A model generated the notes under the pieces. It was given only the letters and a program-made list of their open reading frames with translations. It searched no databases and was not told the DNA's origin. From Pseudomonadota bacterium (GTDB taxonomy: Bacteria > Desulfobacterota > Syntrophorhabdia > Syntrophorhabdales > Syntrophorhabdaceae), in contig JAPLKF010000092.1 of the NCBI GenBank assembly GCA_026388215.1, positions 1 through 35,779 of the forward strand: a DNA stretch of 35,779 bases, read 5' to 3'. Shown one piece after another: positions 20,507 through 33,732 of the stretch; position 1 is the stretch's first letter; the number at the start of each line of letters is the position of its first letter. The translations under genes and the position numbers were made by a program.

Positions 20507-20643
20507 GATTATCTGCTAAAAAGTAACCCTTCAGTTTCATTTTTTAGTCTATTCCAAATTAACACTTGATGCTGGTTTTTTACCCTCCATATAGACTGAT
20601 TTTTTGAAATATTTTTACTGTCTACTATGATTTTAACAAAATA

Positions 20644-20748
20644 TATACTGTATAATATAATTTTTATTATTTGTATATTTAGTAATAATTACAATATATT
20701 ATAAATATTACATAATATTCTTAGTGAATCCTTGTTATGTACAGTATA
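20644..20748. promoter_or_regulatory. Palindromes TATAC(A/T)GTATA upstream of the first HTH-cyclase gene
   Basis: TATACTGTATA at 20644-20654 is a perfect palindrome around its central base. TGTACAGTATA at 20738-20748 differs at one position, and a weaker copy TTTACTGTCTA lies at 20614-20624. The same motif recurs five times before the paralogous gene at 32212. The remainder of the 334-bp gap (20507-20840) is AT-rich without coding signals. I infer operators, perhaps for the MerR-like domain coded downstream. Confidence 0.55.
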
Positions 20749-20757
20749 ATTTTTTTC

Positions 20758-20784
20758 TTGACAATTATATTTGGACTTTATAAA
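20758..20784 (+). promoter_or_regulatory. Promoter of the first HTH-cyclase gene
   Basis: TTGACA at 20758-20763, an unusually short 15-bp spacer and TATAAA at 20779-20784. The arrangement, including the upstream AATTTTTTTCTTGACA, is shared with 32113-32139 before the paralogue. A short spacer is typical of MerR-regulated promoters only in the opposite sense (those are long, 19-20 bp), so the mode of control is open. A palindrome TGTTTAAACA lies at 20808-20817 in the leader. Confidence 0.5.
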
Positions 20785-20840
20785 TTATACTATCGTGGTA
20801 AGTAATCTGTTTAAACAATGCTATTTTAAGGGTGTTAACT

Positions 20841-22346
20841 ATGTCTAAAGATACTGCTCAAACGTGGATTAACAGCAAGGAAATATTAAAAAAATGCGGT
20901 ATTTCCAGGGCAACATTAAACAACTATATTAAACTTGGGATTATTCCAAAGCCTATCGTCCAGAAACCACAAGAGGATATGAAAAAGACAAAAAAAATAG
21001 GCTATTTTCCGCAGATGGTTTTAAACAATATAGAAATGGTCAAGCGTTTAAAAAAAGAGGGGAATTCTGTAGAAAATATAGCCCAAAAATTAAAGGTAGT
21101 ACCTATTTCTGAACCTGTTACTGTGGAAGAGAAACAAAAGGTATCTGAAATTTTACACACTGGAAGTAAAGAGCTCAGGTTAACTATCGATAATATCGAG
21201 ACCCCGGCCTACCTTCTTAACTATCAATTTGAAATAGAGTGGATAAACAGGGCAGCAGAGGAAAAAATTTTTAATCAATCGGTCAGATTAATAAAAGACA
21301 CCGAGTTGAGAAATATTTTTAGATTATTCTTTAACTTGAAATTTCATGACAACATTCAGAACTGGGAGAACCTTTTTGACTTCCATGCAGCCTTTTTAAA
21401 ATCAAAAATTTCCAGGGACCTTGTTGAAAAACTATACCAGGGAATTTCTGAAAGTGAGGTCAGTTTTTTAAAAAAGGCATATGACAGGGCTCTCAGTCTG
21501 CCCAAACAAGTAATTAATCAAAATCTTATTACTATTACGAGACAGGATGGATCAAAAGAGCCGTATCGGCTCTATACCACATTTTTCAGGGAAGGTTTAT
21601 TTTTCCTTTATGTACCAAGTGATAGTTTATTTGAAGGAATAACAGAGTTTTTATCAAACCGCGGGCAGGTAATCAACGAATTGCTTCACCAACGTATGTC
21701 AACCCTGGTTTATTTTTGTGTACTTGTCGCTGATTTACAGGATTCAGTCCGTATATGCGCTGAACTGCCACCGGAAGAGTACTTTGAATTGATCAACCTG
21801 ATATGGAAAACGATGGAAGAATCTTTTAAAAAATATTACGGCATCTATGGAAAACATGTTGGTGACGGAATTGTGTATTATTTTTTAAAGGAACGGGGTT
21901 CAAACTATATTATGAATGCCATCAATTGTGCAATGGAAGTAAAAGAAAAAATGGAAAAACTTTCCATCGAGTGGAAAATACGTAAAAAGTGGGCCAATGA
22001 GCTTTATTTGAATATCGGCATAAATGAGGGCCAGGAATATATTAGTGCAATCCACGCCTCAACAAGTATAGAATTCACAGCCCTCGGTGATACTATAAAT
22101 TATGCGGCGAGGTTATCCGATATTGCCCAATATGGTTCCATATTCACTACAAAAAATTTGATGAATAAATTAAAAGAAGAAGACCGTAAAAATATCCGTT
22201 TTGGTATTAAAAGAAAATTACAGGATAGGGAAGTATTTATAGAGAATACATTTTCCCGGGTTATCGACCTTGTAAATGGAGATGATATGAGACGTGGAAA
22301 ATTTATGGATATTACAGCACTTCCTGTCACAGAAATTATTAGGTAG
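20841..22346 (+). CDS. MerR-like HTH - PAS-like - class III nucleotide cyclase fusion (copy A)
   Basis: 501 residues from the ATG at 20841, chosen because AAGGG lies before it; a GTG at 20832 is in frame. Residues about 10-80 are a MerR-type winged helix (ISRATLNNYIKLGIIPKP, VKRLKKEGNSVENIAQKL). Residues about 115-270 hold a PAS-like domain (LTIDNIETPAYLLNY, FEIEWINRAAEE). The C-terminal 210 residues are a class III cyclase: metal Asp D298 (VADLQDSVRI) and D342 (KHVGDGIVYYF) exactly 44 apart, purine-selecting K338 and T413, transition-state N420 and R424 in GDTINYAARL. All catalytic positions are present, and the Lys/Thr pair suggests ATP and class IIIb. It has no membrane segment, so the protein is soluble and could bind DNA. 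A paralogue lies at 32212. I know of no characterised protein with this architecture. Confidence 0.85.
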   Translation: MSKDTAQTWINSKEILKKCGISRATLNNYIKLGIIPKPIVQKPQEDMKKTKKIGYFPQMVLNNIEMVKRLKKEGNSVENIAQKLKVVPISEPVTVEEKQKVSEILHTGSKELRLTIDNIETPAYLLNYQFEIEWINRAAEEKIFNQSVRLIKDTELRNIFRLFFNLKFHDNIQNWENLFDFHAAFLKSKISRDLVEKLYQGISESEVSFLKKAYDRALSLPKQVINQNLITITRQDGSKEPYRLYTTFFREGLFFLYVPSDSLFEGITEFLSNRGQVINELLHQRMSTLVYFCVLVADLQDSVRICAELPPEEYFELINLIWKTMEESFKKYYGIYGKHVGDGIVYYFLKERGSNYIMNAINCAMEVKEKMEKLSIEWKIRKKWANELYLNIGINEGQEYISAIHASTSIEFTALGDTINYAARLSDIAQYGSIFTTKNLMNKLKEEDRKNIRFGIKRKLQDREVFIENTFSRVIDLVNGDDMRRGKFMDITALPVTEIIR

Positions 22347-22459
22347 AATGTTGGTACCTATTTATAAAACTTTTATGTTTGTGGTGTTATAAAACTGCAG
22401 CATGGCTAATCTATGAAAATAATAAGGATAAACAAGACTACATAATGTATAGAAAAGAG

Positions 22460-22488
22460 TTGACAATATCGGTAAAGTTTAGTAATTA
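22460..22488 (+). promoter_or_regulatory. Candidate promoter for the HTH/ExeA gene pair
   Basis: TTGACA at 22460-22465, 17-bp spacer, TAATTA at 22483-22488, about 58 bp before the ATG at 22547. The same -35/-10 pair with the same spacing recurs at 25647-25675. The gap between the cyclase and this gene has no palindrome of the TATACTGTATA type. Confidence 0.4.
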
Positions 22489-22546
22489 TTCTAAAATATA
22501 TAGAAAAAGTTTTGTGGTTCTTGAGAATATTTAAATAAGGAAGATT

Positions 22547-23038
22547 ATGGACAAAATTTGCATCGTAAAAAGAAGGAAAGGTGTAAAACAAGGACAGGAT
22601 TCAGTAGAAAAGGTTGTTGAGGTCACACCTTATACCTTGACAGACACCACCGGTCAGAATAAAGATGAAGGTTCAGTTTTTGAAGAGGTTACCAGCGATA
22701 AAGATGAAATAATCTCTGTTGAACTAACTCCTGAGCAATCTACAATGGTTCAGTCCTTGGAGTATATAAAATCTTTATCCCTGGATAAAGACCACGGTGT
22801 AAAATTGGATATGCTGCGAGATGCTGATGGGAAGGTTCTTTTCAATTTCCATTTTAGGCCTGTATATACGGTAAAGATGCTTAACTCCAAAAATGTATGT
22901 GAGATGTTACAAATAGGAAGAAGTTTTTTGGCAAAACTTGTTAAAACAAAAAAGATCAAGAGTTATAAAATTGGTAGACGGAGACGTTTTTCGTTGGAGG
23001 ATATCCTTGAGTATCTTAGCAAAAGTCTGGAGATATAG
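22547..23038 (+). CDS. Excisionase-like helix-turn-helix protein
   Basis: 163 residues. The first 60 are basic then acidic and look unstructured. Residues 61-105 form a small mixed segment (LTPEQSTMVQSLEYIKSLSL, GVKLDMLRDADGKVLFNFHF). Residues 113-160 match the HTH_17/excisionase winged helix: NSKNVCEMLQIGRSFLAKLV, KIKSYKIGRRRRFSLEDILE. Such domains bind DNA in phage excisionases and in small transcription regulators. No integrase or att site is visible, so a regulator is more likely than a recombination factor. AAGGAAG precedes the ATG. It ends 47 bp before the ExeA-type ATPase and probably shares its transcript. Confidence 0.75.
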   Translation: MDKICIVKRRKGVKQGQDSVEKVVEVTPYTLTDTTGQNKDEGSVFEEVTSDKDEIISVELTPEQSTMVQSLEYIKSLSLDKDHGVKLDMLRDADGKVLFNFHFRPVYTVKMLNSKNVCEMLQIGRSFLAKLVKTKKIKSYKIGRRRRFSLEDILEYLSKSLEI

Positions 23039-23085
23039 GTGGTCCTTGATTAAGTGGTATAACTTTTAAAAAGGAGAGTCTATAT

Positions 23086-24402
23086 ATGTATTACGAATAT
23101 TGGGGTCTTAAGAAACCACCTTTTGACAATGTCCCTGACCCATCAATGTATGTTGAATCCCATATATCGGTGGAGAACACTATAGCAGAAACACTTTTTG
23201 CTATAGAGGAAGGGAATGAATGCATTGCGGTCATTGTTGGAGATGTGGGTTTGGGGAAGACCTTATCGTTGAGAATAATCCTTGATTCCCTGGACCAGGA
23301 AAAATATAAGATAGCTTTTATTACCAATCCCGATATGTCCTTTGTACAGCTTTTGAGAGAAACTATCGGTCAGTTGACCGGGAAACAGTGTGAAACAAAA
23401 GGGAAGATAAACCTTCTGGAGACCTTTAATAAACTTTTATTTGAGACTATAGATGAAGGTAAAAAGGTCCTTATTTTTATCGATGAGGCGAATGCCATTT
23501 CCCCGGCTAATCTGGAAAGTTTAAGATTGCTTACTAACATGCAGGATGACACCAGAAATTTGTTTACTATTGTCCTTTCAGGGCAGATGGAGCTGGCAAG
23601 GAGATTAGAACATCCAAAACGCGCTAATCTGTTTCAGAGAATCGGAACCTATAACAGGATAGACAAAATTCAATCTGAAGAACTTTTAAAAAACTATGTT
23701 GAAACACGCCTGAAACTGGCGGGAGCAACAAAAAAAATATTTACCGAAGATACCTTCCCTTTTTTATGGGAATATTCTGAACATGGTATACCCCGTCTTA
23801 TTAACAAAATTTGTAAATTGTGTTTGAAGGCAGGGGAAACGAATGAGTTTGATAAGATAACTGGGGAGGTTGTAAATCAGATTGGGGAACGTTTTCAAAA
23901 ATTAACTGGACCGGACGTTCAAAAGAGGAAACCTAGAAAAAGGCCTGCAAAAGAACCAGTTCGAGAAGAAAAAGAACCCATACATGAAGAGATTGAAACC
24001 AAAATAGAAAAAGAACCAGAAAAGGTTTTTGTAAAACCGGAAGTAGAGAAGGTTGAGCATATAGAAGAAAGACCTCCTGAAGAAAAAATAAAACCAGTTT
24101 TAGAACCGGAACCCCCCAAGAAAACTGCAGAAATAATGAAAGAGGTTCCGACAGAGGCGCCAGAAGAGACAAAAATTGGTGAGTTTAAGATTAAAATTGA
24201 TATTCCTCCCAATATACTTGAGCAAGCTCAATCATCAAACAGGGAAAGCCGTCTTAAAATAGCCGGAGTTTTAGCTGCCCAGACCCTTGAAAAATATCCT
24301 CAATTGACGTCTTCGTCTTCAGCTGATCCGGTTTCTATATGGAGTGAAATCAGGGATTTAATCTTGAATAAGCTTGAACGAGAAATCGGGCCAACTCAAT
24401 AA
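23086..24402 (+). CDS. ExeA/GspA-type AAA ATPase with charged C-terminal extension
   Basis: 438 residues. MYYEYWGLKKPPFDNVPDPS is the classic start of ExeA-like ATPases. Walker A is GDVGLGKT (52-59), Walker B VLIFIDEAN (128-136), a sensor strand lies in FTIVLSGQMELARRL, and the lid reads HGIPRLINKICKLCL. The domain ends near 285. A Glu/Pro/Lys-rich linker (about 290-360) leads to a small C-terminal domain (KIKIDIPPNILEQ and WSEIRDLILNKLE). ExeA proteins remodel peptidoglycan for secretin assembly or serve transposition (TniB type). The cell-wall LysM/PG-binding domain of true GspA is not seen. GGAGAG precedes the ATG. Confidence 0.85.
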   Translation: MYYEYWGLKKPPFDNVPDPSMYVESHISVENTIAETLFAIEEGNECIAVIVGDVGLGKTLSLRIILDSLDQEKYKIAFITNPDMSFVQLLRETIGQLTGKQCETKGKINLLETFNKLLFETIDEGKKVLIFIDEANAISPANLESLRLLTNMQDDTRNLFTIVLSGQMELARRLEHPKRANLFQRIGTYNRIDKIQSEELLKNYVETRLKLAGATKKIFTEDTFPFLWEYSEHGIPRLINKICKLCLKAGETNEFDKITGEVVNQIGERFQKLTGPDVQKRKPRKRPAKEPVREEKEPIHEEIETKIEKEPEKVFVKPEVEKVEHIEERPPEEKIKPVLEPEPPKKTAEIMKEVPTEAPEETKIGEFKIKIDIPPNILEQAQSSNRESRLKIAGVLAAQTLEKYPQLTSSSSADPVSIWSEIRDLILNKLEREIGPTQ

Positions 24403-24425
24403 TAAACACACTTGCCTTAGTTCTT

Positions 24426-25331
24426 TCAGGATTCTTTGTTTTCCAGTTTTTGTAAAATCTGTTGTGCCTTCCTGTTTTTTGGGTTTATGGATAGCACGAA
24501 ATTGAGCCTTCGGAGAATTTCCTCCCTTTTTGAACCTTCTGGATTTGACCTTTCCCGTATATAATCAAGGTGGACAAGGTTGTAATTGGCCTGTTCATGT
24601 AATGGATTCAATGAGAGGGAAGTTTTATAGGCAGAAACAGCATCTTCATAATTTCCCATCTCTTCGTAAATAGAACCAAGGTTATTCCATACCTCTGGAT
24701 GATTGCGGTCTAATTCTATTACCCGTTTGTATGACTCTATTGCGTTTTTGTAGTCACCCTGCTGTGTATACAGATTACCAAGATGGAAAAGGGCCTTTAT
24801 ATGGTCAGGGTCTATTTCTAAAACCTTTTTATACTGCTCCATTGCTTCATCGAACATATCCTGGCGGTCGTGTAAAACAGCGAGGCAAAAGCGGGGTGAA
24901 ACAGTAAGGGGATCGATTTCTATAGCCTTTTTATATTGTTCAATTGCCCCCTGATAATCACCCTGTAAATCTGCTATCTGGGCAAGATTGATTGTTGCTT
25001 CAACATCTAAAGGGTTTAGTTTAAGCGCCTTTTCATACATCTGTTTTGCGCTACCGAATCGCTCCATTCTTTCGTAGACATAGCCCAGGTTGTTATATGC
25101 CTCAGGATTATCAGGTTCAAGGTCAACCACTTTATTAAAACACTTTAAAGCCTTATCATAATCTTCCTTTTGTAAATAAATAAAACCAAGATTCACGTAT
25201 CCATCTGTAAACTTATTATCGAGTTGTATGCTTTTTTTATAAGCTACAATGGCTTTATCGACATTAGATTCAGTGCTGTCATAGTTGTACCCTTCCATGA
25301 ACCATTCCCTGGCAGTCTTTTTTTTGCTCAT
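24426..25331 (-). CDS. Tetratricopeptide-repeat protein
   Basis: 301 residues, almost entirely TPRs: about seven consecutive 34-residue units from residue 40 to 250, each with the W/Y..LG..Y...G.Y..A...Y.KA....P pattern (for example YNNLGYVYERMERFGSAKQM and WNNLGSIYEEMGNYEDAVSA). There is no signal peptide or catalytic domain, so it is probably a cytoplasmic protein-protein scaffold. AAGGAGG is correctly placed. It is convergent with the ExeA gene (24 bp apart) and divergent from the membrane cyclase gene, which also contains a TPR-like segment. Confidence 0.9.
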   Translation of the reverse strand: MSKKKTAREWFMEGYNYDSTESNVDKAIVAYKKSIQLDNKFTDGYVNLGFIYLQKEDYDKALKCFNKVVDLEPDNPEAYNNLGYVYERMERFGSAKQMYEKALKLNPLDVEATINLAQIADLQGDYQGAIEQYKKAIEIDPLTVSPRFCLAVLHDRQDMFDEAMEQYKKVLEIDPDHIKALFHLGNLYTQQGDYKNAIESYKRVIELDRNHPEVWNNLGSIYEEMGNYEDAVSAYKTSLSLNPLHEQANYNLVHLDYIRERSNPEGSKREEILRRLNFVLSINPKNRKAQQILQKLENKES

Positions 25332-25415
25332 TTACCCTCCTCCTTGAGGTTCTGTCTCAAATTTAAAGGAAACGAATGTGTTCTGAAACGGGATATCTTT
25401 TATAAAATTTTAAAC

Positions 25416-25444
25416 ATGCTATCAAACGAGTAATTCCTTGTCAA
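25416..25444 (-). promoter_or_regulatory. Candidate promoter of the TPR gene
   Basis: On the minus strand TTGACA (25439-25444), 17-bp spacer and TAGCAT (25416-25421), about 85 bp before the ATG at 25331. Confidence 0.45.
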
Positions 25445-25646
25445 GGGTAAAGAGACCAGAATAACCCTTGAAATTTATAACTGAAGCCCATCGACATCTA
25501 TCCAGTGTATGACCTATACAATAAAAAAGTTAAGGGAAGCCTCTAACTACAGGCTAAATCGACTATATTGATGAAATTAAGAAAATAAATAAAATGCCGA
25601 TTATTAAAATTGAAGGGAAGGCGATTAACCGGTTAGTACTTTATCG

Positions 25647-25675
25647 TTGACAAAATTTATAGGTAGTGGTAATTA
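25647..25675 (+). promoter_or_regulatory. Candidate promoter of the leader ORF and membrane cyclase
   Basis: TTGACA at 25647-25652, 17-bp spacer, TAATTA at 25670-25675. It is the same hexamer pair and spacing as the promoter at 22460. It would give a leader of about 80 bases before the leader ORF. Confidence 0.4.
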
Positions 25676-25762
25676 AAAAACAAGTATTATAAGGGATTAA
25701 ACAGAAAATCATTTAGATTTAGAGGGCTATATCGGAAATAATTTGAGTGCAAGGAGTTAGTT

Positions 25763-25837
25763 ATGGTGAAGAATGAGGTCGAGGTTTTTCGTAAAACAAT
25801 AATATTTAAACAGTGTCCAAAGATCAAAAACCGATGA
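25763..25837 (+). CDS. 24-codon leader ORF overlapping the cyclase start
   Basis: MVKNEVEVFRKTIIFKQCPK and four more residues, with a strong AAGGAG six bases before its ATG (25751-25756). Its TGA overlaps the in-frame ATG of the cyclase as ATGA at 25834-25837. The cyclase itself has no ribosome-binding site, so translation of this leader could deliver ribosomes to it. Alternatively the leader is the true N-terminus of the cyclase separated by a one-base indel. Homologues would decide. Confidence 0.45.
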   Translation: MVKNEVEVFRKTIIFKQCPKIKNR

Positions 25838-27792
25838 AAAAAGAGAAAGAATTCACTGAACATGATTATCGGGAAATCACTGGGTCTGAAGTTATTGGAA
25901 GTTGGCCGTTTCGTATCCGGGATTTTATCGTTCATTACCTGGAACTTTTATTTGTTTTGCTAATTGCATGCTTGGTAATAGCTGTTTTCTTTCTTTTTCC
26001 CTTCAAATTTGCATTCTTGAACCTTTTTTATCTCCCTGTACTCACAGCCGCATATTTTTTAGGAAAACGCTATGCTTTCCTGGCATCCATACACATTATC
26101 TTGCTTGTGGTTGTCTCGGCCTTTATTCGACCCGAATGGTTCACAGTAGGAGGAACCCAATTAAGCACCATGGTTATGATTTCTATCTGGGGGGGATTCC
26201 TTGTTATTACCAGTATAGGTATTGGTTCGCTTCAAGAGCGTCTTGCCAAGGGTTTTGCGGAAACCCGCCATCTTTACGAAGAATTAAAAAGAGGCCGCGT
26301 AGTAGAAGAGATGAAGGAAAAAGTTGAAAAAGCGCTCTACGCCACTATGGATCCTGTAGTAGCAAAGCTAGCCACCGAAGATAAATTAAGGTTTGAAAAA
26401 AGAGAAATCAGTATTATGTTCACTGATTTAACGGATTTTACCACATATTCAGATCAACATCCCGCCGATGTGGTTCTCGAGGAACTTAATTCATTCCTTG
26501 GCCAAATGGAACCAATTACAGAGATGTACAAAGGTCACATTGATAAGTACATGGGTGACGGGGTTATGCTTGAGTTTGGTGCCCCCATAGATTATGACCA
26601 GCATGCCCTCATGGCTGTTCTTGCTGGCTGGAAAATGCAAGAAAAGGTTAAAATCTTGAGCCTGCCCTGGCGATTACGGTGTGGCATTGCCACAGGAAAT
26701 GTGATTATAGGTATGTTTGGGGTACGTCGTAAGGCATATAGTGCCCTTGGTGACCGTGTAAATGTTGCCAAGCGTCTGGAAGAAATATGTGAACCTGGAA
26801 AGGTTTTTATTGACGAACCAACATACTTAGCGGTCGAGCCTTTTATAAACGTAAATAAACTCCGAAATAAAGGATATGGACGCCAGACAGATAAAGAATT
26901 GCTTGAACAAGTAAGTGTTCTTGAAGAGAGGTTAGCCCAGGATACTGAAAATCCTGAGATACTATACAAAATTGGTAAAACTTATTACGAACTACGAGAT
27001 GCTTCAGAAGCTATCCGATACTTTGAGCGTGCCTTAGCTTCGGACCCGGAATCGACTGAAATTAGACTCGCATATGCTGATGCAAACCTTAAGAAAGAAG
27101 AGTTTGAAAAAATCCAGCTTAAGGGAATATTGCAGAAGATTACTATTTACGAGGTCACGGGTATTAAAAACCGTTGGGATGACCCTTCAGTAATTCCACT
27201 ATCACTATCTTCAAAATACCGCCAACTTGAAGCTCTTAAGGACATCCCATCTGACTTAGTTCGCTCCGTTGAAGCCCTGGATGGTTCCATAGGTCATGGA
27301 CAGGTTGTAGGATTACTTTCATATGCAATAGCCAATCATATGAATTTGAATGAGGAGTTTAAAAAAACAATCTTACAGGCTGGATATCTTCAGGATCTTG
27401 GGAAGGAAGCTGTACCCCATCACATCTTAAATCGTTCTGCAAGCCTCACAGAACAAGAAGCAAAGTTAGTGGAAAAGTATGTTCTGGAAAGTGTGGCCAT
27501 TTTAAAACGTTTAGGATATGTGGAACCACAACTTCTTGAGATTGTGAAACACCATCACGAAACGTGGAATGGAAATGGTTACCCAGACGGGTTAAAGGGG
27601 GAAGATATTCCCGTCGGGGCACGTATTACATGTGTCGCCGAAGCATACAGCGCTATGACATCATGGCGTCCCTATCATGAACCTTGGGATTCTCGTATGG
27701 CCTTGAGTGAGCTCCGTAAGGCAGTGGAAAGAGGGGTTTATGACCCTCAGGTGGTTGAAGCCCTCATCGAGGTCCTTAAACCGGATTCTTAG
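25834..27792 (+). CDS. Membrane class III cyclase fused to TPR-like and degenerate HD-GYP domains
   Basis: 652 residues from the ATG at 25834; an in-frame GTG at 25813 adds seven. Three to four hydrophobic segments (about residues 30-140: LELLFVLLIACLVIAVFFLF, FLASIHIILLVVVSAF, MVMISIWGGFLVITSIGIG) anchor it in the inner membrane. The cyclase domain has D198 (IMFTDLTDFT), K238 and D242 (DKYMGDGVML), S303 at the second purine-contact position, and GDRVNVAKRL. A TPR-like pair follows (ILYKIGKTYYELRDASEAIR). The C-terminal HD-GYP domain keeps HHE and GYP (HHETWNGNGYPDGLKG), but the HD motif reads Q520-D521 and the usual D..DAM is EAYSAM. It may make a cyclic nucleotide and use the HD domain as a sensor rather than a c-di-GMP phosphodiesterase. 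Confidence 0.85.
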   Translation: MKKEKEFTEHDYREITGSEVIGSWPFRIRDFIVHYLELLFVLLIACLVIAVFFLFPFKFAFLNLFYLPVLTAAYFLGKRYAFLASIHIILLVVVSAFIRPEWFTVGGTQLSTMVMISIWGGFLVITSIGIGSLQERLAKGFAETRHLYEELKRGRVVEEMKEKVEKALYATMDPVVAKLATEDKLRFEKREISIMFTDLTDFTTYSDQHPADVVLEELNSFLGQMEPITEMYKGHIDKYMGDGVMLEFGAPIDYDQHALMAVLAGWKMQEKVKILSLPWRLRCGIATGNVIIGMFGVRRKAYSALGDRVNVAKRLEEICEPGKVFIDEPTYLAVEPFINVNKLRNKGYGRQTDKELLEQVSVLEERLAQDTENPEILYKIGKTYYELRDASEAIRYFERALASDPESTEIRLAYADANLKKEEFEKIQLKGILQKITIYEVTGIKNRWDDPSVIPLSLSSKYRQLEALKDIPSDLVRSVEALDGSIGHGQVVGLLSYAIANHMNLNEEFKKTILQAGYLQDLGKEAVPHHILNRSASLTEQEAKLVEKYVLESVAILKRLGYVEPQLLEIVKHHHETWNGNGYPDGLKGEDIPVGARITCVAEAYSAMTSWRPYHEPWDSRMALSELRKAVERGVYDPQVVEALIEVLKPDS

Positions 27793-27830
27793 GTTTCCTG
27801 TAAGTTTTATTACATAATTGAGCTTTATAA

Positions 27831-29342
27831 TTATCTATCTTCTCTTAAAAAAACAGCAAGTCTCGAACATATTCTTTCATAGAGATCGTCTACATATTGT
27901 GCTGGTGTGATATAGTGGTTGCACATCATGGAGAATACCATCATCTCTCCATCCTTTGTTGTTGCATAACCTGAAAGATTACGTATATGGTTCATTGAAC
28001 CAGTCTTTGCCCGGAGATTATTCTTACAGGGAGCTGCCTTCATTCTATTTTTTAAGGTTCCGTCAATACCAGCAATAGGAAGAGAATTATAATATAAATC
28101 GAAATATCTATGTCTTGCCATAAAACGGAGTAACTCAACTACCTTTTTTGGGGTTACAAGGTTATATCGAGAAAGTCCGGAGCCATCAACCATAAAAAAA
28201 TTATCCGTATTGATACCAATACCTTCTAAAAACTCCCTTATCGCTGAAATGGCGGTCTTTGAATCACCCTTACCCTTAAATTCCCTACCAATAGTAAGAA
28301 GGAGTTGTTCAGCATGGAGATTTTTACTCTTTTTGTTTATCACATATATAATTTCATCAAGCCTTGGGGATCGGTAAAAAGCTAACCTCTTTCTATTTTG
28401 AAAAGGGGGTTGTTCTTTACCTGCAATATACACCTTTCCCGTAAATGTTATCCCCTTTCTCATTAAAGTTTCTCCAAAAACAAAAGCACCATAATGTGCG
28501 GGATTTTTCACAGCAATGGACTTTCCGTATTCTTCACTATTTATTGGGAATATTCCTGATATCTCCAGGTTGTTTGTGTCGTATAACATTTTAAAACTAA
28601 CATCTGCTTCGGAACTCTGATTGCCTGTTATAACTTTATTGACTATGTTTATATATTTAGTTTGCGGCTCTGTCCGTACTTTTGCTGGTGCACCTATGGA
28701 ATCGCCATGGTAGATAAAGATATCTATAGAATTATCGTTGAAAGAAAAGGCATCTTTTCGAGCTGAGTACCAGAATATTTCATCGTCCCAGCTCCAGCCC
28801 TCACCCATAGGAATATCATCAAAATATGAATTATCAACCACTATGTTACCACGAATTTCTTTTATTCCGAGGTATGACAGGGTATCTGCCCAGTTCTCAA
28901 AAACTTTTATTGTGTTACCATCGTTAAAGTAACCCGAAATGGTTGGATCACCCCTTCCAATTATAATTAAATCACCTTTTAAAATACCGGATTCTATGTT
29001 TCCATTTGTAAGGAGTTCTGTTTCGTATGTAAAATTTGGAGATAGGTATATCAGGCCGGCTGCTGTTGTAAAAAGTTTTATGTTAGAGGCAGGAATGAAA
29101 AGTTTATTCTCATTATAATGATACATCACCTCACCTGTATCTAAAGATTCAATATGAATACCGAGATGGGCAGATGATAATTTTTCATCCTTTATAAGGC
29201 AATCTAACTCGGAACGGAGCCTTTCAACTGGCGTGAAGGATTCATGTTTTGGTTTGATCACACATCCAAGTAGCGAGCTTGAAAGAAAGGCAATAAATAT
29301 GAAAAAAATTAAATAAAGGTGGTTATGTTCTTTAGAGCCCAT
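27831..29342 (-). CDS. dacB: PBP4-type D-alanyl-D-alanine carboxypeptidase/endopeptidase, predicted lipoprotein
   Basis: 503 residues from the ATG at 29342. An upstream in-frame ATG at 29414 would bury the signal peptide and has no ribosome-binding site. The N-terminus MGSKEHNHLY, a hydrophobic core and the lipobox LLGC give a lipidated Cys at residue 27. Peptidase S13 motifs are complete: S86-x-x-K89 in FIPASNIKLFTTAA, the S-x-N motif in DGSGLSRYNLVTP, and KTG in RAKTGSMNHIRNLSGYA. It trims or cleaves peptidoglycan peptides in the periplasm. PBP4 is normally a soluble periplasmic enzyme, so lipid anchoring is a variation. It is convergent with the cyclase gene and divergent from the enoate-reductase-like gene. 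Confidence 0.93.
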   Translation of the reverse strand: MGSKEHNHLYLIFFIFIAFLSSSLLGCVIKPKHESFTPVERLRSELDCLIKDEKLSSAHLGIHIESLDTGEVMYHYNENKLFIPASNIKLFTTAAGLIYLSPNFTYETELLTNGNIESGILKGDLIIIGRGDPTISGYFNDGNTIKVFENWADTLSYLGIKEIRGNIVVDNSYFDDIPMGEGWSWDDEIFWYSARKDAFSFNDNSIDIFIYHGDSIGAPAKVRTEPQTKYINIVNKVITGNQSSEADVSFKMLYDTNNLEISGIFPINSEEYGKSIAVKNPAHYGAFVFGETLMRKGITFTGKVYIAGKEQPPFQNRKRLAFYRSPRLDEIIYVINKKSKNLHAEQLLLTIGREFKGKGDSKTAISAIREFLEGIGINTDNFFMVDGSGLSRYNLVTPKKVVELLRFMARHRYFDLYYNSLPIAGIDGTLKNRMKAAPCKNNLRAKTGSMNHIRNLSGYATTKDGEMMVFSMMCNHYITPAQYVDDLYERICSRLAVFLREDR

Positions 29343-29562
29343 ATCCTTTGATCCCTTAAACGCTTTAGTCAACTGGACAAAGTGATTATAACTTATCCAA
29401 TCACTGCTATACAAAGCAAATAAATGATTGAAAAATAATATAGCTGGATTGAATTATTTGCTTTTATTGTCCATGCTTATAATCAGAATAGTATGTCCTT
29501 GACTTCGCCTCTCGGCATGTGTTACCTACTTTTCGAAATAGTCGGGGATAAGGCAATAGTAA

Positions 29563-31533
29563 ATGGGAAAAGAACAATATAAAGAAAGTAATAAAGAAAG
29601 GTACCCCCACATTTTTTCTCCTGGTCAAATTGGTCCTCTTAAGGTGAAGAACCGGATCAAATACGCTGCTACTGAAACGAATTTTCCATTTGGTGATGGA
29701 TTTGTAAGTGATAGAGAGGTTGCATATATGGAAGCCCAGGCAAAGGGTGGTGCCGGGATTGTTACCACGCAAGGCGCTTATCCTGATACAAAAGGAGAGG
29801 GCAAGGGGTTCAAGGGAATGATGAGTATTGCAGAAGATCGTTTTATTCCTGGTCTCGCCCGTATCGCAGAGGCAATAAAACGTAATGGTGCCTTAGCGGC
29901 TTTACAGATTTTGCATTGTGGAAGAGAAGGCGGTGTAGAACTTGATTATTGTCTTATGCCATCAGTCGTGCCGCAGAGACTTTCATATTTCAAACCTCCA
30001 CGGGAGATAACCTCCTATCAGATAAAAGAATCTGTGCAGGACCATATCAGGGCTGCCCGTAGGGCTGTTGATGCTGGCTATGATATCATAGAAATATCAG
30101 GAATTGTAGGGTATCTCCTTTCAACATTCATATCCCGTTATACCAATAAACGCACTGACAAATACGGGGGAGACATCAGGAATAGATGCCGTCTTATGAT
30201 GGAAGTACTCCAGGGTGTAAAAGCAGAAGCAGGGGATTCGATACCTGTGGGTATACGACTCTGCGGTCTTGAATTACTCGATGATCGTGGAGGGAATACC
30301 GTGGAGGAAAGCCTGGAAAGTTTCCTTCTTGCTGAAGAGGCAGGAGCAGATTATGTGAGCGTGACGATAGGTTGGCATGAATCTTCTGTATCAGTTATTA
30401 CACGAGATGTTCCCATGGGACACTGGCTCTATGTTGCAGAAAGGGTAAAAAAAATTGTAAATATTCCGGTTATGATAGCATTTCGACAGTTTATACCCGA
30501 GATACCTGAGAAGGCAATAGGTGACGGCATCATCGATTTCTGGGAAGCGTGTCGTCCAATGATAGCAGACCCGGAACTTCCCTTGAAGATATCTAAAGGG
30601 AGGGAAGAAGAAATCATCCCGTGTATTGCTTGCAACCTTTGTTTTTCACGCCTCTATTATCATCAGCCCATCATGTGTTCTGTAAGGCCAACCCTCGGTC
30701 ATGAGAATGAAGCTGATTGGGGATACTACGGTTTTTCCCAGAGTAAAAGGAAAAAGAAAATAGTAGTCATAGGGGGTGGTCCTGCAGGACTTCAATGCGC
30801 CTCTGTTGCTGCAAAAAGAGGACATAAGGTAACTCTACTGGAGAAGAGAGAATTAGTGGGTGGAAGTATTCTCCTTGCTTCGAAGGTTGATGAGGGCGCA
30901 ATAGAACTTCTGCGCCCAATAAAAATGCTTGAAGGAGAATGCCTGCGTTCAGGCGTAGAGATTCGCTTAGGGATTCAATACACCCCTGAAGCTTTGGTTG
31001 AAGAGGGTACGGATGCAGTAGTTATAGCTACCGGTTCAATAGTTAAAACCTTTCCTTTAGTCACTTCACAAAATATTTTCACGCCAGAAGATATTATAGA
31101 TAAGGGGAAGAACCCTCCAAAGCGTACAGCAATTATTGGAGGAGAGGGTGTAGGGCTTGGGATTGCTGTATTTTTATCTCGCCAAGGAGAATACGATCTT
31201 GTTATTGTGGAAGAGGGTGGCAGACTCGGTCGTGACGTAAATCCATTTTACCTCTGGCAATACCTTAGGTTATTAAAGGAAAAAAAGGTTACCCTATTAA
31301 CACATTCCCGGGTTGTTGGAATTGAAGGAAAGATGCTGTGTATCAACAGGATGGCCGAGAAGGAGTTCATAGAAGTTGATGGGATAATCATTTCACAAAG
31401 AGAACCTGTAAAGGAATGGGATTTGGATTTAGGCCATGTGGCAAAGGAGGTTTATTTTATAGGCGATGCAAAAAGACCAAGGCGTCTACACAACGCGATA
31501 TATGATGGATATCGGCTGGGAATGGTGCTCTGA
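29563..31533 (+). CDS. Old-yellow-enzyme / 2,4-dienoyl-CoA-reductase-type FMN-FeS-FAD oxidoreductase
   Basis: 656 residues, full length for the enoate reductase / 2,4-dienoyl-CoA reductase / BaiCD group. Residues 15-340 form the FMN TIM barrel (IFSPGQIGPLKVKNRI, ALQILHCGREGG, DIIEISG, STFISRYTNKRTDKYGGDIR). C354, C357, C360 and C372 (CIACNLC, then 11 residues, C) bind [4Fe-4S]. From about residue 400 lie the FAD domain (VVIGGGPAGLQCASVAAKRG) and an NAD(P)-binding stretch (TAIIGGEGVGLGIAV). It reduces activated C=C bonds with NAD(P)H or ferredoxin as donor; the substrate is unknown. The ATG has AAGG nine bases upstream. The next gene, a ferredoxin, starts in its stop codon (TGATG). Confidence 0.92.
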   Translation: MGKEQYKESNKERYPHIFSPGQIGPLKVKNRIKYAATETNFPFGDGFVSDREVAYMEAQAKGGAGIVTTQGAYPDTKGEGKGFKGMMSIAEDRFIPGLARIAEAIKRNGALAALQILHCGREGGVELDYCLMPSVVPQRLSYFKPPREITSYQIKESVQDHIRAARRAVDAGYDIIEISGIVGYLLSTFISRYTNKRTDKYGGDIRNRCRLMMEVLQGVKAEAGDSIPVGIRLCGLELLDDRGGNTVEESLESFLLAEEAGADYVSVTIGWHESSVSVITRDVPMGHWLYVAERVKKIVNIPVMIAFRQFIPEIPEKAIGDGIIDFWEACRPMIADPELPLKISKGREEEIIPCIACNLCFSRLYYHQPIMCSVRPTLGHENEADWGYYGFSQSKRKKKIVVIGGGPAGLQCASVAAKRGHKVTLLEKRELVGGSILLASKVDEGAIELLRPIKMLEGECLRSGVEIRLGIQYTPEALVEEGTDAVVIATGSIVKTFPLVTSQNIFTPEDIIDKGKNPPKRTAIIGGEGVGLGIAVFLSRQGEYDLVIVEEGGRLGRDVNPFYLWQYLRLLKEKKVTLLTHSRVVGIEGKMLCINRMAEKEFIEVDGIIISQREPVKEWDLDLGHVAKEVYFIGDAKRPRRLHNAIYDGYRLGMVL

Positions 31534-31733
31534 TGATACCTGTTATCGATAAGGAGTCATGCACAGGATGTGGAAGTTGTATTGATATATGTCCCAATCA
31601 GGCAATCTATATGGAAGGTGAAAAAGCACAGATAGATGCTGAGTTTTGTGAAGAATGCGGTTTTTGTACATCTGAATGTCCTGTCGATTCTATAAAAATA
31701 ATGTTCCCAATTTTTTCCGGTTCAAACCCCTAA
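31533..31733 (+). CDS. 2[4Fe-4S] ferredoxin
   Basis: 66 residues with two complete cluster motifs: C10-x2-C13-x2-C16-x3-C20 (CTGCGSCIDICP) and C39-x2-C42-x2-C45-x3-C49 (CEECGFCTSECP). It is a small low-potential electron carrier. The start overlaps the stop of the enoate-reductase-like gene by one base, so the two are coupled, and this ferredoxin is the likely electron donor or acceptor of that enzyme. Confidence 0.95.
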   Translation: MIPVIDKESCTGCGSCIDICPNQAIYMEGEKAQIDAEFCEECGFCTSECPVDSIKIMFPIFSGSNP

Positions 31734-31923
31734 AACAAATAATCTTACAATGTATCTATTAAATTCATTTTAACGCTTTTTTTATTACTAATGCATATAA
31801 AACCATTTATTTCTCTATAAAATAACGGTTAAAATGAAAACAAAGGCTATATGAAATAGGGTAGTTCCTCTTTTATTGCAGATCCTTTAAAACCACTATT
31901 TTTAAAGTTTAAGATAGACATAT

Positions 31924-31992
31924 TTAGACATTTCAACATTTTTAATTATACAGTACATATTTATTTAAACAGTATAATTATTTAATGTCTAA
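31924..31992. promoter_or_regulatory. Inverted repeat TTAGACATT / AATGTCTAA flanking two palindromes
   Basis: TTAGACATT at 31924-31932 and its exact complement AATGTCTAA at 31984-31992 enclose two copies of the ACAGTATA-type palindrome. The same nonamer pair occurs again at 32151-32196. The word is not seen before the paralogous gene at 20841. Chance in AT-rich DNA cannot be fully excluded. Confidence 0.45.
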
Positions 31993-32137
31993 GTAAAAAA
32001 TAATATTGTCTATATATAATTTTACATATTCTCTTCAAATTTTTAATTTAATCTCTATTTTACAGTATATTTTAAAATATTTAAATTATTTTTAAACAGT
32101 TTAATTTTTTTCTTGACAAATGTATTTATACTGTATA
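31947..32137. promoter_or_regulatory. Five palindromes of the TATAC(A/T)GTATA type
   Basis: Copies: TATACAGTACA (31947-31957), TAAACAGTATA (31966-31976), TTTACAGTATA (32059-32069), TAAACAGTTTA (32093-32103, perfectly symmetric) and TATACTGTATA (32127-32137, perfectly symmetric and identical to 20644-20654). The last covers the -10 box of the promoter at 32113-32139. The 478-bp gap 31734-32211 has no coding signal otherwise. I infer repressor or activator sites shared with the first HTH-cyclase gene. Confidence 0.6.
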
Positions 32138-32139
32138 AA
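32113..32139 (+). promoter_or_regulatory. Promoter of the second HTH-cyclase gene
   Basis: TTGACA at 32113-32118, 15-bp spacer, TATAAA at 32134-32139, preceded by TTAATTTTTTTC. Sequence and spacing match the promoter of the paralogue at 20758-20784. A TATACTGTATA palindrome overlaps the -10 box. Confidence 0.55.
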
Positions 32140-32150
32140 AGATATATATG

Positions 32151-32196
32151 TTAGACATTATTAAAAAAATATTAGGGTTCATATTGAAATGTCTAA
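32151..32196 (+). promoter_or_regulatory. Leader hairpin or operator TTAGACATT - AATGTCTAA
   Basis: A perfect 9-bp inverted repeat (32151-32159 and 32188-32196) with a 28-base loop lies in the untranslated leader, ending 15 bp before the ATG at 32212. In RNA it could form a hairpin that limits ribosome access; in DNA it would be an operator. It is the second pair of this nonamer in the gap. Confidence 0.45.
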
Positions 32197-32211
32197 TTAT
32201 ACAGAGAAGCA

Positions 32212-33732
32212 ATGATAGATAGCAAAGAGCTTTTAAAAAAAACAAGTATATCCAGGGCAACTCTTAATAATTACATACGATTGGGTATTATTCCAAAACC
32301 AATAGTAAAAAAACCTGATAAGGAAAATAAGAAAATAAAAAAAATAGGGTACTTTTCTGAATCAGCACTAGAAGATATCAGAACCGTTAAACGTTTAAAA
32401 AAAGAAGGAAACTCCATTGATAATATAGCTAATATTTTCAGAAATACATTCAATAAAATGAAAGTTGCAGTAGAAGATGATTTGAAAGTTTCCCCTAAAG
32501 ATGAAGATAAAAAAATCACTGAAAAGATGGTTTCAAGAGAGGATGAAAAACTTACACTCACGATTGATAACATAGAAACCCCGGCCTACCTCATAAATTA
32601 CAAATTTGAAATAGAATGGATAAACCACGTAGCAGAAGAAGAGATATTTCAACAGACGGTAAGGCTCATCAAAGATGCAGAATCGAGAAACATCTTCAGA
32701 TTACTTTTTAATATGCTGTACACTGGCAACGTAAAAAATCTCGAAAGCATTGTTGACCTTCACATGACCTTTTTAAAATCGAAATTTTCAAGAGATGAGG
32801 TATTTAAACTATACTCAGGTATTTCGGAGAAAGAAATTAATTATTTTCAAGGGTCTTACGATAGAACCGATAGTATACCAAAAAAGGATTTAATAACTCA
32901 GACCCATATTGATATTGTGGAACAGGATGGAAATACGAGATCCTACAGACTTTACATCACGTTTTTTAGAGAAGGGTTGTTATTTTTCTACGAACCAAGC
33001 GATACGCTTTTAGAAGGGGTGATAGAATTTCTTAAAAACCGCAGTAAAGTGATTAATGAGTTGCTGCAGCGCCGTATGCCTGCCTTGATCGATTTCTGTG
33101 TACTTATGGCAGATTTACAGGATTCTGTCAGGATATGCGCTGAACTGCCACCGGAAGAGTATTTTGAGCTAATTAATCAGATGAGAAAAAACGTTGAAGA
33201 ATCTTTCAGAAACTATTATGGGATTTATGGAAAACATGCCGGTGACGGGTTAGTCTATTATTTCTTAAAAGACCGTGATTCGCATTATATTGTAAACTCG
33301 CTTAATTGTGCCATGGAATTAAAAAATAAGATGGAAAAACTTTCGGCTGAGTGGAAAGTACGCAAAAGATGGGACAATGAGCTCTACCTGAATATAGGCA
33401 TAAATGAAGGGCAGGAATATTTCAGTGCAATTCATGCTTCAAACAACATAGAATTTGCTGCCTCAGGAGACACCATTAATTATGCAAGCAGGCTATCTGA
33501 TCTTGCCTGTTATGGTTCAATTTTGACCACAAAGAATCTTATAAACAGAATGGCTAAAGAAGATCGCCAAAGGTTTATTTTTGGCATAAAGAGGAAGACA
33601 CTGGGTAGAGGAATATTTATCGAAAACATGTTTTCTAGGGTTGTAGATTTTATACATGTGGATGATCCGAGATGTGGAAAATTTATGGATATTGCAGCGT
33701 TACCTATTACCGAAATTATTGGCAGAGCGTGA
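32212..33732 (+). CDS. MerR-like HTH - PAS-like - class III nucleotide cyclase fusion (copy B)
   Basis: 506 residues, paralogous to the protein at 20841 along its whole length. The HTH (ISRATLNNYIRLGIIPKP), the PAS-like start (LTIDNIETPAYLINYKFEIE) and the cyclase core (DLQDSVRICAELPPEEYFEL) are nearly identical. Metal Asp D301 and D345 are 44 apart, K341 is in KHAGDG, and GDTINYASRL retains the catalytic Asn and Arg. The second purine-contact residue, Thr in copy A, is Ala here (A416 in EFAASGD), so substrate choice or activity may differ. The linker after the HTH is longer and more charged. The ribosome-binding site (AGAGAAG) is weak. The GAF-domain gene begins 47 bp downstream and is probably co-transcribed. 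Confidence 0.85.
   Translation: MIDSKELLKKTSISRATLNNYIRLGIIPKPIVKKPDKENKKIKKIGYFSESALEDIRTVKRLKKEGNSIDNIANIFRNTFNKMKVAVEDDLKVSPKDEDKKITEKMVSREDEKLTLTIDNIETPAYLINYKFEIEWINHVAEEEIFQQTVRLIKDAESRNIFRLLFNMLYTGNVKNLESIVDLHMTFLKSKFSRDEVFKLYSGISEKEINYFQGSYDRTDSIPKKDLITQTHIDIVEQDGNTRSYRLYITFFREGLLFFYEPSDTLLEGVIEFLKNRSKVINELLQRRMPALIDFCVLMADLQDSVRICAELPPEEYFELINQMRKNVEESFRNYYGIYGKHAGDGLVYYFLKDRDSHYIVNSLNCAMELKNKMEKLSAEWKVRKRWDNELYLNIGINEGQEYFSAIHASNNIEFAASGDTINYASRLSDLACYGSILTTKNLINRMAKEDRQRFIFGIKRKTLGRGIFIENMFSRVVDFIHVDDPRCGKFMDIAALPITEIIGRA

Follow-up and report, generated by a model that had tools for sequence, protein, structure and literature searches.

A cyclase family with a built-in MerR-type DNA-binding domain that probably recognizes operators at its own promoter

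Introduction

Second-messenger enzymes are normally under the control of separate regulators. The stretch of DNA analyzed here (35,779 nucleotides, called the window below) carries two genes, P0001 and P0002, whose products join a helix-turn-helix (HTH) domain and a class III cyclase in one chain, and a short palindrome recurs in the gaps upstream of both. The question raised by this locus is whether the palindromes are operators recognized by the cyclases' own HTH domains, and what a protein that is regulator and enzyme at once might do.

Genes, domains, and relatives

Both proteins are composed of a MerR-type HTH, a PAS-like ligand domain of the MmyB type, and a class III adenylyl cyclase domain (Table 1). 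They are the only full-length family members encoded in the source genome, the remaining matches having the cyclase domain alone. The ATG of P0001 at 20841, with AAGGG upstream, is a likelier start than the GTG at which its reading frame opens. For P0002, we noticed a nine-codon upstream reading frame (32189-32215) whose TGA overlaps the start codon; in two relatives the corresponding stretch is in frame and forms the N-terminus of the protein. Judging from the sequence, a single-base indel, or an error in sequencing, may have shifted the start of P0002.

A scan for relatives, with ISR[AS]TLNNY as one search pattern, found 298, of which 80 loci were retained. These belong mainly to the former Deltaproteobacteria and to Beta- and Gammaproteobacteria; a few are from Alphaproteobacteria, and one locus is labelled KSB1. 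In the tree, P0002 and two Syntrophorhabdus-like relatives cluster together (99/96) and P0001 stands apart, so the duplication that gave rise to the pair seems older than the genera compared. Pfam MerR_1 is matched by 54 of 67 members at E 0.01, while P0001 itself scores 18.2 bits, below the cut-off of 21.6. The preliminary description had called the two HTH domains near-identical; this holds for the recognition stretch ISRATLNNYI, which is the same in both, but not for the domain overall (51/80 residues, with 26/33 in the HTH core). Structurally, the middle domain of P0002 is closest to MltR (3pxp; Z 9.0, rmsd 3.5), with 142 of 164 residues aligned as against about 100 for ordinary PAS domains, and PF17765 (MLTR_LBD) is matched by 5 of the 67 members.

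The gene neighborhood offers few hints. A fixX gene often precedes P0001-type genes, the P0002-type gene lies behind an old-yellow-enzyme-like gene in the window and in one relative checked, and a rhodanese gene adjoins the cyclase gene in four gammaproteobacterial loci. Apart from the fix operon, no conserved neighborhood that could serve as a functional clue was found in the family.

Operators and promoters in the window

Seven copies of TATAC(A/T)GTATA had been reported upstream of the two genes. The palindrome is indeed present at all seven positions, although an exact match to TATACWGTATA occurs at only two (20644 and 32127); there is one mismatch at 20738, 31947, 31966, and 32059, and two at 32093 (TAAACAGTTTA). 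With up to one mismatch allowed, the window contains six matches where shuffles predict 0.66, and none of 100 shuffles reaches six. Scored with a 13-bp profile derived from the relatives, the upstream gaps of P0001 and P0002 contain 2 and 5 sites against expectations of 0.026 and 0.034, obtained from 1000 dinucleotide shuffles per gap, not one of which equals the observed count. A profile built solely from Beta-, Gamma-, and Alphaproteobacterial relatives also finds all seven sites, and its top four matches in the window are among them.

Table 1. Features of the two cyclase genes and their upstream regions (window coordinates)
Feature	Position	Strand	Remarks
Weak additional operator-like site TTTTACTGTCTAC	20613-20625		profile score 10.0 bits
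Operator ATATACTGTATAA	20643-20655		motif search and profile; exact 11-mer at 20644
Operator ATGTACAGTATAA	20737-20749		immediately 5' of P0001 -35 box; motif search and profile
P0001 promoter, TTGACA-N15-TATAAA	20758-20784	+	preceded by T-rich word AATTTTTTTC
Degenerate -10 operator TTGGACTTTATAA (P0001)	20771-20783		34 bp from preceding operator; by reading, unscored
HTH-cyclase gene P0001	20841-22346	+	reading frame opens at GTG 20832
Operator TTATACAGTACAT	31946-31958		motif search and profile
Operator TTAAACAGTATAA	31965-31977		motif search and profile
Operator TTTTACAGTATAT	32058-32070		motif search and profile
Operator TTAAACAGTTTAA	32092-32104		5' of P0002 -35 box; profile
P0002 promoter, TTGACA-N15-TATAAA	32113-32139	+	preceded by T-rich word AATTTTTTTC
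Operator TTATACTGTATAA	32126-32138		over P0002 -10 box; motif search and profile; exact 11-mer at 32127
HTH-cyclase gene P0002	32212-33732	+	65% identity to P0001
MerR-type HTH of P0002 (residues 1-80)	32212-32451	+	Pfam MerR_1 27.3 bits (cut-off 21.6); model
PAS-like ligand domain of P0002 (residues 113-276)	32548-33039	+	domain modelled alone, pLDDT 91.3
Class III cyclase domain of P0002 (residues 291-506)	33082-33729	+	Pfam Guanylate_cyc; Foldseek CyaC 1wc1, E 1.9e-9

The common promoter, TTGACA-N15-TATAAA behind the same T-rich word, is found at both genes as first described, and reading the sequence confirms that the last palindrome copy overlaps the -10 box of P0002. As a shared design, though, it is only partly telling: the T-rich word is unspecific, being frequent together with TTGACA but without the operator in the genomes of relatives, and the shared promoter word is just partly specific. 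The spacer between the -35 and -10 boxes is 15 bp at both window promoters and 14 to 16 bp in relatives. This is short for sigma-70, so the -10 box may lie elsewhere, which makes any sign of regulation read from it tentative.

In most Deltaproteobacterial relatives one operator lies directly 5' of the -35 box and another on the -10 box, about 33 bp apart. Over the relatives as a whole, operator spacings fall into classes near 22, 33, 44, and 54 bp, and the operator centers cluster at -15/-14 and +18/+19 counted from the first T of the -35 box; among Betaproteobacteria the position relative to TTGACA varies. One relative (G008:C138, L133) carries the cyclase promoter a second time, at a contig end behind a second copy of fixX, as a duplication or an assembly variant.

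Conservation and specificity of the operator

The 13-bp operator consensus across the 80 related loci is TTAKACWGTMTAA, with TTAGACWGTCTAA as the form in Beta- and Gammaproteobacteria. A site is present in 67 of 77 upstream regions, recurring 5' of relatives in the former Deltaproteobacteria and in Beta-, Gamma-, and Alphaproteobacteria, which bears out the conservation expected of an operator. The core ACWGT occurs at 10.7 per kb upstream and 1.1 per kb in coding sequence. Profile matches of at least 11 bits number 162 within the 400-bp upstream regions against 31 in 822 kb elsewhere, the profile having been trained on the same upstream regions that it scored, save for the one built from Beta-, Gamma-, and Alphaproteobacteria only. 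Pattern searches of 44 genomes (155 Mb) gave 73 exact sites, 49 of them at most 600 bp upstream of the cyclase gene, where 0.012 would be expected, so the predicted enrichment at genes with this HTH is borne out as well; several of the genomes lack an exact site.

Lone near-copies of the shorter 11-mer are close to background in the 2.39-Mb source genome (86 against 63 for a reversed control), whereas their clustering and promoter position are unusual. A regulon of many genes was considered and rejected: the 24 of 73 exact sites left over are fewer than the 43 found with a reversed-pattern control, and most of them lie inside genes or at unrelated genes. In the source genome, those on contigs C144 and C235 are at the end of and inside coding genes, and that on C41 is inside a gene. 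A TATACTGTATAC-like motif 5' of CoA-transferase genes in one genus (g5) lacks the flanking design and is probably another regulator's.

These counts bear on one alternative, namely that AT-rich gaps give rise to such palindromes by chance, the shared promoter word being an ordinary strong promoter. The near-background frequency of lone near-copies and the commonness in the family of the T-rich word with TTGACA speak for it, and for the T-rich word this explanation holds. For the palindromes it is refuted by the near-restriction of exact sites to the cyclase gene; shuffles of the same gaps oppose it, as does conservation of the palindrome in GC-rich genomes, and as a whole we regard this explanation as extremely improbable.

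Which protein binds the operator is suggested by natural variation in the recognition helix. Where ISRATLNNY is intact, 66 loci have a site and 6 do not; where it is altered, 1 has a site and 4 do not (Fisher p = 0.0007, a site being called absent when none reaches 11 bits), a p-value that is indicative since the search pattern ISR[AS]TLNNY tilts the sample to intact helices and related loci are non-independent. Site conservation, enrichment at the cyclase gene, and the tracking of site loss by helix alteration strongly support the proposed autoregulation, and on this comparative sequence evidence the operators are in all likelihood recognized by the HTH-cyclase itself. Because ISRATLNNYI is identical and the operators are shared, each paralogue should also regulate both genes, as the preliminary description had it, although control of P0001 may be weaker, its -10 operator being degenerate.

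It is quite improbable that the palindrome instead belongs to LexA, a CRP/FNR protein, or an unknown factor controlling the cyclase genes. ACTGT does resemble a LexA half-site, TTATACTGTATAA precedes an imuA-like gene in one genome (G136), and the source genome encodes CRP/FNR-like cNMP-binding proteins. We rejected a LexA box reading, however, as CTGTN8ACAG occurs in the window at chance frequency and no match forms a full LexA site at the operators. The Beta/Gamma form of the operator is unlike LexA, and the loss of operators alongside altered recognition helices argues against any other regulator.

Cyclase site and product

The cyclase profile PF00211 is matched by all 67 members, and the metal aspartates D301 and D345, K341, and the transition-state residues N423 and R427 are retained in 67 of 67 aligned members. 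Position 416 is Thr in 48 members including P0001, Ala in 14 including P0002, Val in 4, and Ile in 1; position 418 is Leu in 66 of 67, P0002 having Ser. With these two substitutions in its cyclase site, P0002 may differ in activity. The nearest solved structures to the cyclase domain are adenylyl cyclases, and we infer that the domain would make cAMP. The CRP/FNR-like cNMP-binding proteins encoded in the source genome are in keeping with this reading.

The product might instead be cUMP, cCMP, or cGMP, and the gene might belong to a Pycsar-like defence system. The cyclase domain is hit by the PycC models of PADLOC (2.3e-15 for P0001), and a cUMP synthase occurs among its structural matches. We consider this very improbable, as Lys341 of the adenine-specifying pair is invariant in the family and Thr416 is mostly retained, the top structural matches are adenylyl cyclases, which counts against other cyclic nucleotides, and no Pycsar effector was seen among the neighbors examined, where no gene recurs widely in relatives.

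Mode of regulation

We propose that P0001 and P0002 would act as one-component regulators and enzymes at the same time. A dimer of the HTH would bind the 13-bp palindrome; operators placed about whole helical turns apart flank the -35 box and cover the -10 box of the protein's own promoter, and the bound dimers would most likely shut the promoter off in negative autoregulation. We favor repression as the sign, with reasonable though not high confidence, because the operators cover the -10 box and flank the -35 box in varied positions. Class III cyclases act as dimers and PAS domains are dimeric, and for this reason dimerization through both domains would tie the state of the ligand to cAMP output and to binding of the operators. 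Each paralogue should also control a third promoter, 5' of a GalT-like gene and pilMNOPQ.

The sign could also be the opposite, the protein recognizing its own operators but activating the promoter by reshaping its poor spacing, as many MerR-type regulators do. The HTH is of the MerR type, a spacer of 14 to 16 bp is non-optimal, and operators directly 5' of the -35 box could serve activation. Classical MerR activation involves a spacer of 19 to 20 bp with one operator inside it, unlike the short spacer and the operator over the -10 box seen here, and the varied position relative to TTGACA in Betaproteobacteria fits occlusion better; activation therefore appears unlikely, if considerably less so than a foreign regulator.

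The furthest-reaching interpretation is that these proteins are a widespread and undescribed kind of cAMP synthase that brings its own transcription factor, whose only regular conserved target is its own promoter, and in which a ligand would set both the activity and the amount of enzyme through one dimer. We assign this reading as a whole a probability of about 0.5. In this family the regulator forms part of the enzyme itself, and the comparison of genomes already yields the operator, the promoter design, and natural variants of the recognition helix, so that how ligand sensing connects with cAMP synthesis and with autogenous control can be tested directly.

Relation to known systems

To our knowledge, no conserved self-operator has been reported for the actinobacterial proteins that combine a cyclase homology domain with a LuxR-type HTH (CHD+LuxR). 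These proteins, such as Rv0386, carry a class III cyclase and the LuxR-type HTH in one chain (PMC3466318); they share the cyclase/HTH fusion with the present family and differ in the type of HTH, which is MerR here, and in domain order. MltR (3pxp; PF17765), which is MmyB-like, likewise combines DNA binding with a PAS-like ligand domain in a one-component protein and has been described as a dimer in which a fatty acid is bound (PMC3406030), but its HTH is of the Xre type and it lacks an enzyme domain, in contrast to the MerR-type HTH and C-terminal cyclase of P0001 and P0002. With the MerR family the two proteins have the N-terminal MerR_1-type HTH in common; they differ in the compact 13-bp operator, the short spacer, and the lack of a typical MerR effector domain, and the MerR-style operator within a 19- to 20-bp spacer is absent, the operators lying over the -10 box and 5' of the -35 box. 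CyaC (1wc1) and CyaB (3r5g) have the same catalytic domain with the metal aspartates, Lys, Asn, and Arg, whereas in P0001 and P0002 this domain is fused to a DNA-binding domain predicted to target its own promoter.

HTH-cyclase fusions are thus known already, while the MerR/MmyB-type/cyclase arrangement with a self-operator appears to be new. Neither the arrangement nor the self-operator is described in the papers and family libraries searched, most subscription journals lying outside the search, and literature searches returned no description of a MerR-cyclase fusion or a self-regulating cyclase. As far as its main text goes, a survey of cyclases (PMC2447327) has no passage on HTH domains.

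Further operator targets and other features of the window

The source genome contains one further full copy of the operator-plus-TTGACA promoter, a third, at C194:9306-9357 (L162, G000). Identical to the P0001 promoter over a stretch of 31 bases, it sits between wbaP and the GalT-like gene, which is followed by pilMNOPQ; either this promoter is a genuine target or it is what remains of a lost copy. An operator also lies near thrH in four gammaproteobacterial genomes (L225:4083, L227:17435, L254:567, and L256:2832), in three of the four between thrH and cysH. The thrH/cysH operator and the pil/GalT promoter are the first leads to the purpose of the signal.

Two other parts of the window drew our attention. 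At positions 22547-24402, an excisionase-like HTH_17 gene precedes one for an AAA ATPase that resembles, below the cut-off, the XrtA/PEP-CTERM ATPase. Positions 25813-27792 encode a 659-residue protein with hydrophobic N-terminal segments, in which a class III cyclase domain is combined with TPR repeats and an HD-GYP-like HD_5 domain.
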